64,000 nucleotides of DNA from Kiritimatiellia bacterium. Lineage in GTDB: Bacteria; Verrucomicrobiota; Kiritimatiellia; RFP12; DVOR01. The stretch's first letter is position 1. Every line of letters begins with the position of its first letter. The notes beneath the pieces are model-generated. The model was not told the origin of the DNA. It worked only from the letters and a program-made list of their open reading frames with translations, and did not search any database. The translations under genes were made by a program, and so were the position numbers. The stretch covers positions 699,286 to 763,285 of the forward strand of contig JAFXKZ010000002.1 of NCBI GenBank assembly GCA_017531445.1. Direction: 5' to 3'. Below are positions 39,678 through 41,889 of this stretch, one piece after another.

Positions 39678-39750
39678 AAAAAACCCTCCCGAACAATGTT
39701 CGTGGAGGGGTGGGGTTGTGTGTCTGTGTAGGAGAATGTGTTTTGAAAAC
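39678..39750 (-). ncRNA. Candidate small RNA, about 73 nt
   Basis: A consensus promoter (-35 TTGCAC, 17 bp, -10 TATTAT, at 39785-39757 on the minus strand) predicts a transcript from about 39750. It ends in a terminator: stem CCCTCC/GGAGGG with an inner GAACA/TGTTC pairing and six T (39709-39678). The transcript has no ATG or ribosome site. Its 5' part is unstructured and rich in C and A, with TTCTCCTACAC and ACCCCACCCC that could pair with ribosome-binding sites. I know no family that fits. The RNA lies in a convergent gap. It is a candidate, not proven. Confidence 0.5.
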
Positions 39751-39756
39751 GCGAAT

Positions 39757-39785
39757 ATAATACCAAAAGCAACACGCCTGTGCAA
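39757..39785 (-). promoter_or_regulatory. Promoter of the candidate small RNA
   Basis: TTGCAC (39785-39780) and TATTAT (39762-39757) are 17 bp apart, and the -10 box is preceded by TGG. It is one of the best sigma-70-like promoters in the window. Confidence 0.6.
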
Positions 39786-40275: not shown

Positions 40276-41889
40276 TTAAAGCAGCTGTTGCCCGGATGAT
40301 AAATAGAGAATCTGCCCCGTAACAGAAGGCGAGGTTAACAGAAATTCCAACGCCGCGGCGATTTCACGGGACGTTGGACGCGGCGTCAGACAATCGCCCG
40401 CCTTTTCCGAATGTTCCTTCTGGGGCGGCGGAAAGACCGGACCGGGTGCAATCGCATTAACACGCGCCGCGCATCGCGTTTTGCACATCACCGCCCCAAG
40501 CCCCGGAGAAGGCGTTTCTTCAGACGTGCAGCACCCCTCTCTAAGTTTTCGCGCTGCGTTGTCCCCCGACAACGTGGACTTCTGTTCAAAAACCGCCGTT
40601 TCTTGCGCACCTTCGCGCCCCCACTCCAATGCCTTTTCAAGCGTCCAGTCCATCAATTTTTGTTTGGAATAAAGATACGCACGGACCGCACTCGGCACAG
40701 AAGACAACTTGCGCTGAACGCGCGCATCCAAAAACGTGACGATTTGCGCCGAAGGGAAGCGTTGATGGAACGCCCTCGCCAAACGGACAATTGCATGGAA
40801 ATTCGCCTGATCCATGCGTTCCTGTGGCGCATTCAACTCAAAAAGTCCTGCAAAAAATACCGCCGCATCACACGTTTTGATTTGTGCAACCGCTTGCTCC
40901 GGAGCAAATGTATTCTCCAGAAAATCACCGTATTCCCTGCGCGATAGAACGCAAATCTCAAAGCCTCTTCTTGACAACAGCGGCAATACCGCCGCACCAA
41001 TCCGTCCCGGACCAACGAAAACAACACGGAGGCGTTTTGCCCCTCCAAACGCGTCAGGCTTGCGATGCGCACACGATTTCACACACGCTGCAAAAATCCG
41101 CTTCATGCTATTCCACACAGACAAGAAACCACATTCCCCCTCCCTTTGCACCACACCTTGCGTACACTTTGACAATTCGTCACCCACTCCCGGCACCCGT
41201 GCCAACCGTTCCCGGTCAAAGGCTCCACTTACATCAATTGAATCAGCATCCCCTCTCCGACACATATCCCCAACCGCTTCCGGAAAGCCTGCGTTCCCCG
41301 CCAACAATACCTTCTTTCGGGTGCACAACATTTGCGGATCTGCATCCGGCATACTTACGTCCACCATCGATGAATCCGTGTCACGGGCGGGGGTTTTCTG
41401 CGCATTAGCCTCCGGCATACATACGCCCCCTACCGATGAAATCGTATTGTGAGCGGAGGCTTTCCGTGCGTCCATCTCCGGCGCAACTACACGCCCCTCC
41501 AATGACGCCGTGTCGTCCACATCCGGCATCCGTGCCAACCGTTCCCGGTCAAAGGCTCCACTTACATCAATTGAATCAGCATCCCCTCTCCGACACATCT
41601 CCCCAACCGCTTCCGGGAAGCCTGCGTTCCCCGCCGATGAAGCCATCCCCTCCAGATTCCGCACCCGATCAACGCGTCCTTGCTTCACAGAAAACGATTC
41701 TCCGGGCAATCGTTGCGCCCGTTTCGATAGTACTTTCACGAATTTCCATGCCCAATGACACGTATTTGCATCAACATCACCGCAACACTCATCACTGCGG
41801 CACACTTCAGCCTTTGCCATGCGGCGTGCCTTTTGCGCAATCATCCCCAAAAATCCCGCAAGAGCAGCAACGCCGACAATGAGACCCAT
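40276..41889 (-). CDS. Membrane-anchored SDR-like protein with internal repeats
   Basis: This 537-residue protein starts with a hydrophobic helix (MGLIVGVAALAGFLGMIAQK) and a Cys-rich patch. Residues about 80-240 are built from roughly 22-residue repeats (such as DTDSSMVDVSMPDADPQMLC) inside a duplicated 38-residue block, AGNAGFPEAVG...RERLAR. The C-terminal 250 residues look like a short-chain dehydrogenase: VVFVGPGRIGAAVLPLLSRRG replaces the usual T-G-x-x-x-G-x-G, YLYSKQKLMDWTL gives Tyr-x-x-x-Lys, and VNAIAPGPVFP is typical. The C-terminus recalls FolM-type pteridine reductases. AGAGGAG 10 bases before the ATG supports the start. It follows infC by 43 bases, where rpmI and rplT usually are. 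Confidence 0.6.
   Translation of the reverse strand: MGLIVGVAALAGFLGMIAQKARRMAKAEVCRSDECCGDVDANTCHWAWKFVKVLSKRAQRLPGESFSVKQGRVDRVRNLEGMASSAGNAGFPEAVGEMCRRGDADSIDVSGAFDRERLARMPDVDDTASLEGRVVAPEMDARKASAHNTISSVGGVCMPEANAQKTPARDTDSSMVDVSMPDADPQMLCTRKKVLLAGNAGFPEAVGDMCRRGDADSIDVSGAFDRERLARVPGVGDELSKCTQGVVQREGECGFLSVWNSMKRIFAACVKSCAHRKPDAFGGAKRLRVVFVGPGRIGAAVLPLLSRRGFEICVLSRREYGDFLENTFAPEQAVAQIKTCDAAVFFAGLFELNAPQERMDQANFHAIVRLARAFHQRFPSAQIVTFLDARVQRKLSSVPSAVRAYLYSKQKLMDWTLEKALEWGREGAQETAVFEQKSTLSGDNAARKLREGCCTSEETPSPGLGAVMCKTRCAARVNAIAPGPVFPPPQKEHSEKAGDCLTPRPTSREIAAALEFLLTSPSVTGQILYLSSGQQLL
41190..41302. repeat. Internal direct repeat, copy 1
   Basis: The 113-base block aligns without gaps with 41523-41635, with about three mismatches by eye. 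The offset is 333 bases (111 codons), so the reading frame is kept. Both copies lie in the SDR-like gene. Confidence 0.85.
41523..41635. repeat. Internal direct repeat, copy 2
   Basis: This is the partner of 41190-41302. Between the copies about three 66-base units repeat imperfectly, each with a CATCCGGC or CCTCCGGC-like segment, so the region is a degenerate minisatellite with a higher-order duplication. Confidence 0.8.

Follow-up and report, generated by a model that had tools for sequence, protein, structure and literature searches.

A predicted small RNA with two near-invariant single-stranded boxes, and its siblings, in a genus of uncultured gut bacteria

The Listeria small RNAs (sRNAs) LhrC1-5 are 111-114 nt long, contain two stem-loops and three UCCC motifs, and work on lapB without Hfq (PMC4132741). 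In rhizobia, SmelA075 and SmelA099 are anti-Shine-Dalgarno (anti-SD) sRNAs that carry CCUCCUCCC in hairpin loops and fold into three to four hairpins (PMC3927594). The predicted RNA described here, termed type A, and its sibling type B resemble LhrC1-5 in having several siblings per genome, C/U-rich unpaired motifs and a terminator hairpin (PMC4132741), while type A resembles SmelA075 and SmelA099 in its C-rich motif able to mimic an anti-SD sequence (PMC3927594).

The type A element lies in an 836-nt gap with convergent genes on either side, within a window of 64,000 nucleotides (the whole stretch of DNA analysed) from a Kiritimatiellia bacterium. The infC and thrS genes are found farther upstream of it, beyond the 537-aa open reading frame (ORF) that borders the gap. 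The features of the locus are as follows:

39440, plus strand: end of the Fe-ADH gene, flanking the gap
39678-39683, minus strand: terminator U-tract, U6
39684-39709, minus strand: terminator hairpin CCCUCC(A)CGAAC-AUU-GUUCG-GGAGGG, 11 bp with an A bulge and an AUU loop
39707-39716, minus strand: ACCCCACCCC, in the 5' strand and reaching into the stem
39708-39721, minus strand: box 2, ACACAACCCCACCC, an A/C-only strand, near-invariant, also present in type B, its 3' end overlapping the stem
39726-39736, minus strand: TTCTCCTACAC, within the span of box 1
39726-39739, minus strand: box 1, ACATTCTCCTACAC, unstructured, near-invariant in type A, its core CTCCTACAC common to most type B siblings
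39678-39750, minus strand: predicted type A transcript of about 73 nt, its start placed about 7 nt past the -10 element
39757-39762, minus strand: -10 element TATTAT, following a 17-bp spacer after the -35; TATAAT-like in 15/15 genomes, its spacing to box 1 unchanged
39780-39785, minus strand: -35 element TTGCAC; a TTGC-/TTGT-type hexamer about 16-18 bp from the -10 recurs in relatives
40276-41889, minus strand: ORF of 537 aa without a Pfam match, downstream of infC, its end at 40276 flanking the gap

Each part of the layout proposed by the initial annotation was confirmed on the minus strand, namely TTGCAC, a 17-bp spacer, TATTAT, some 40 start-codon-free bases, a GC stem and six T; so was the convergent gap, and its corollary that the element is not a neighbour's leader agrees with contexts that are mostly unrelated between genomes. 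No ATG, GTG or TTG occurs between the predicted start site and the stem, a TTG being present in the loop only. Upon folding, the predicted RNA forms a single hairpin (-17.4 kcal/mol, z = -2.97) and leaves its 5' 42 nt unpaired; this 5' strand is built from A, C and U, G being nearly absent.

The upstream ORF has some features of its own: a 124-nt direct repeat (41179-41302 and 41512-41635, 94% identity), a 66-nt tandem repeat, and a C-terminal part that by eye resembles a Rossmann-fold oxidoreductase. A homologue of this ORF is located near the type B sRNA of one relative (G008).

A promoter scan of the window returned one site against 1.2 expected, and the terminator was missed by the scan because of its A bulge. 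The scan being at chance level, the layout alone is close to chance and not decisive; it is conservation among relatives that marks the type A element as real. In a DNA search of 59 genomes (the host and relatives), the element was found in 16, all of one genus, and in relatives the match spans the element only and not its flanks. This genus comprises Ca. Spyradenecus and relatives, uncultured gut bacteria of the PVC group, which NCBI places in Lentisphaeraceae although several records are labelled Kiritimatiellae. The exact two-box pattern is present in 16/17 genomes of the genus, with two copies in several. Nine distinct type A sequences were used to build a covariance model. It detects type A in 15/17 genomes, with E-values of 1e-18 or better and scores of 82-96 bits, some of the scored sequences being among the nine.

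In the alignment, ACATTCTCCTACAC…ACACAACCCCACCC is invariant or near-invariant, and the whole 5' strand, ACAUUCUCCUACAC…ACACAACCCCACCC, is almost invariant in type A. Given that the IF3 protein is only 74-90% identical to that of the host genome among the relatives where it was found, such near-identity of a non-coding strand is striking. The linker between boxes 1 and 2 is made of AC/AG repeats and varies in length, in type A and type B alike. The terminator behaves differently at the level of its letters. All of its stem cells are paired (99/99, 100%) and no pair is broken, while 4/11 pairs are changed on both sides, with 11 two-sided changes in all; the covariation value is 0.338 versus 0.093 in shuffles, and shifting the partner by one column lowers pairing to 51-59%. 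The 5' strand is kept almost letter for letter while the letters of the terminator are free; the 5' strand is probably the functional part.

The promoter is likewise retained, with constant spacing in all 15/15 type A genomes: a -10-like hexamer stands about 18-20 nt ahead of box 1 and is accompanied by a TTG-type -35, and the promoter score reaches at least 9/12 in 11/15, compared with 0.5% of random sites at the same loci. A sigma-70-type promoter driving type A is the best explanation of this pattern. The genes flanking type A differ among genomes. Neighbours are common only to one close pair (G001 and G005), and another pair (G014 and G010) has a single distant gene in common; with neighbours mostly unrelated, type A does not qualify as a leader, a 3' UTR or a coding sequence. 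Across the genus neither a start codon nor a reading frame is preserved. An origin as a mobile element was considered and rejected, as the flanks are unrelated, no terminal repeats are seen by eye, and conservation ends at the promoter and the U-tract.

The proposal of an independent sRNA with its own promoter and terminator is therefore upheld by conservation, covariation and mostly unrelated contexts: the covariance search in related genomes recovered type A in 15/17 with a covarying stem, and both promoter and terminator, whose lack of conservation would have spoken against the proposal, are kept in 15 genomes. We regard the type A locus as very probably a real sRNA gene. Its predicted anatomy, its conservation, its covariation and its independence from neighbouring genes are established at the level of DNA comparison, which makes the case for an sRNA far stronger than the raw sequence does.

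Type A has a sibling. Type B carries the CTCCTACAC and ACAACCCCACC boxes as in type A, together with an extra box, AAGAUAUAA; it is preceded by a promoter-like stretch and closed by a terminator whose sequence differs from that of type A. This third conserved box, also read as AAGATATAA, stands directly before the type B terminator (loci L016, L019, L026, L030, L036, L039, L193, L198-L200 and L202) and is absent from type A. According to a sequence-only model, type B is present in 14/17 genomes, a count that includes a weak member in G016 and the host's variant copy. The latter lies outside the window:

C1:261372-261422 of the host genome (G000), plus strand: type B sibling with the box 1 variant TACCCTAAACA; promoter-like GATATAAT and next TACCCTAAACAACACAGACTAACCAGTAACCCCACAAATAAAATATAA, with a terminator hairpin behind them

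In some genomes type B shows partial synteny. Two rarer forms also occur, a duplicate of type A (A2) in G014 and type C in G016 and G004. When types A, B, the A duplicate and C are counted together, at least one member occurs in 17/17 genomes, and these predicted RNAs are best explained as an sRNA family confined to the genus, its main siblings being type A (at this locus) and type B.

Outside the genus, exact-pattern matches across the genomes of 84,980 species consist of genus members plus apparent chance matches, mostly coding-like. Model matches were sought in the order (162 genomes) and in the class (346 genomes). Of those outside the genus that were read, none has an evident promoter in front, and most are terminators at gene ends or look like coding sequence. 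Viral contigs and phage records gave no match. Rfam 15 gave none either, the best hit being Hrs1 on the opposite strand, with 14.8 bits where the cut-off is 56.4 (E = 3), and our literature search turned up no publication about sRNAs from this lineage. This is almost certainly a new, previously undescribed sRNA family of a known kind, as predicted from sequence. Across the genus, gene-end terminators are often similar to that of type A, with stem and loop of the GAGGACATTGTCC kind (loci L179, L180, L182-L185, L188-L190, L194 and L195), as if a preferred terminator sequence had spread through these genomes.

The initial annotation had also suggested that TTCTCCTACAC and ACCCCACCCC pair with SD sites, and target prediction at start regions did not bear this out. 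We used 987 gene starts called by a simple script in a host genome that is about 50% complete, so targets may belong to the absent part of the genome or be remote from start codons; real seeds, moreover, can be as short as 6-7 nt. A 16S rRNA 3' end was looked for in the available part and not found. Duplex energies against the 987 called genes gave top values no better than those of 15 shuffled and one reversed control, no k-mer enrichment was found at the 987 start regions, and 8-10-mer wobble matches there were at control level. An apparent k-mer deficit in the middle part (7 versus 27.6) was not accepted as avoidance, given that TAG seldom precedes AGGAG within coding sequence either and that the k-mers overlap. 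The 10-nt complement of box 1 placed before a start codon (TGTGTAGGAG-N3-9-ATG) occurs in no mRNA of the 17 genomes, which again goes against SD pairing; the single TGTGTAGGAG-ATG match is an sRNA copy read on the opposite strand. The antisense pattern GTGGGGTTGTGT across the genus yields mostly the sRNAs themselves and a few unrelated sites. Pairing with SD sites may nevertheless occur by short or wobble-rich contacts.

The box 2 region has two perfect 15-nt complements in the host genome, at C1:399657 (plus strand) and C2:835968-835979 (minus strand). By a rough estimate the chance expectation is well below one; both are intergenic by the called genes, and neither could be clearly tied to a gene.

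As for how the RNA would act, we propose that transcription from the promoter yields an RNA of about 73 nt and stops at the RNA's own terminator. The 5' strand, almost only A, C and U, would stay unpaired as the active part, and the RNA would act in trans, most likely through base pairing of boxes 1 and 2 with RNA targets by short or mismatched contacts; the two boxes and their variable linker would then be two seeds. Base pairing is the commonest mode for such RNAs. Taken as one, an expressed RNA with an active 5' strand that acts in trans by pairing through boxes 1 and 2 is in our judgement somewhat more probable than the alternatives combined. Hfq was detected in 0/40 relatives and ProQ/FinO in 0/17 genomes, the control genomes being positive for Hfq and the E. 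coli control for ProQ/FinO; pairing, if it takes place, would thus have to manage with neither. KH domains of KhpA/B type were seen in 6/17 genomes, below cut-off only.

Since the target tests were negative and limited in scope, a role in protein binding has to be taken as a serious rival. The RNA would then be real and serve as a sponge, decoy or scaffold for a protein that binds C/A-rich single strands, for example a cold-shock or KH-domain protein, instead of pairing with other RNAs. The two fixed boxes with their variable AC/AG-repeat linker, kept in both A and B, the A/C-only composition of box 2 and the failure to find complementary targets would all suit such a role. However, linear conservation of the boxes is equally expected of pairing seeds, and among possible partners the KH domain was seen below cut-off only; we judge this reading to be unlikely though well worth keeping in mind. 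Less likely still is a narrower form of base pairing, in which the RNA is an antisense repressor that covers SD sites through CUCCU in the manner of LhrC or RsaE. Box 1 does contain CUCCU, complementary to the AGGAG that is common upstream of host starts, and C-rich motifs of the UCCC type work in this way in Firmicutes (PMC4132741), but complementary sites are not in excess at start regions and not one gene in 17 genomes has the 10-nt complement with an ATG.

The remaining alternatives deny an independent RNA gene altogether. A chance promoter match joined to the terminator of the upstream minus-strand gene, i.e. the end of a 3' UTR, or else a cis-acting leader or attenuator, would accord with the same-strand ORF that ends at 40276, with a promoter scan that finds no more sites than chance, and with similar terminators bearing the GACATTGTC stem-loop after genes elsewhere in the genus. 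Yet promoter, 5' strand and terminator are retained as a unit in 15 genomes whose flanking genes are mostly unrelated, and in the window no minus-strand gene follows downstream until far off, past two plus-strand genes, which renders this account very improbable. A short peptide gene, for which the size of the transcript speaks and nothing else, is next to inconceivable: a start codon is absent before the terminator, and the linker changes length in 2-nt steps that would shift the frame.

The base-pairing reading thus stays our preferred one. Going beyond it, types A and B, with the rarer A2 and C, could constitute a core riboregulator of the genus that employs an almost invariant A/C-rich single strand, is independent of location and functions without Hfq or ProQ, maybe with some chaperone or protein partner yet to be recognised; we advance this tentatively, as conceivable rather than probable on present sequence evidence. 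With its near-invariant boxes, its pair of siblings per genome and its spread through the genus, and with neither Hfq nor ProQ detected, the family offers a clean entry to riboregulation in uncultured gut bacteria of the PVC group, and one that is approachable through existing gut metatranscriptomes, for which culture is not needed.

Set against the known systems, types A and B are reminiscent of NgncR_162 and NgncR_163 of Neisseria, which by the description available of them are also two homologous sRNAs per genome (PMC9973317). The features by which LhrC is recognised are not those of type A, which is about 73 nt long, has one hairpin and no Rfam match. The C-rich motif sits on a linear strand in type A, in contrast to the hairpin loops of SmelA075 and SmelA099 (PMC3927594). 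Type A is a member of neither LhrC nor the rhizobial anti-SD sRNAs, from which it differs in size, hairpin number and motif placement.
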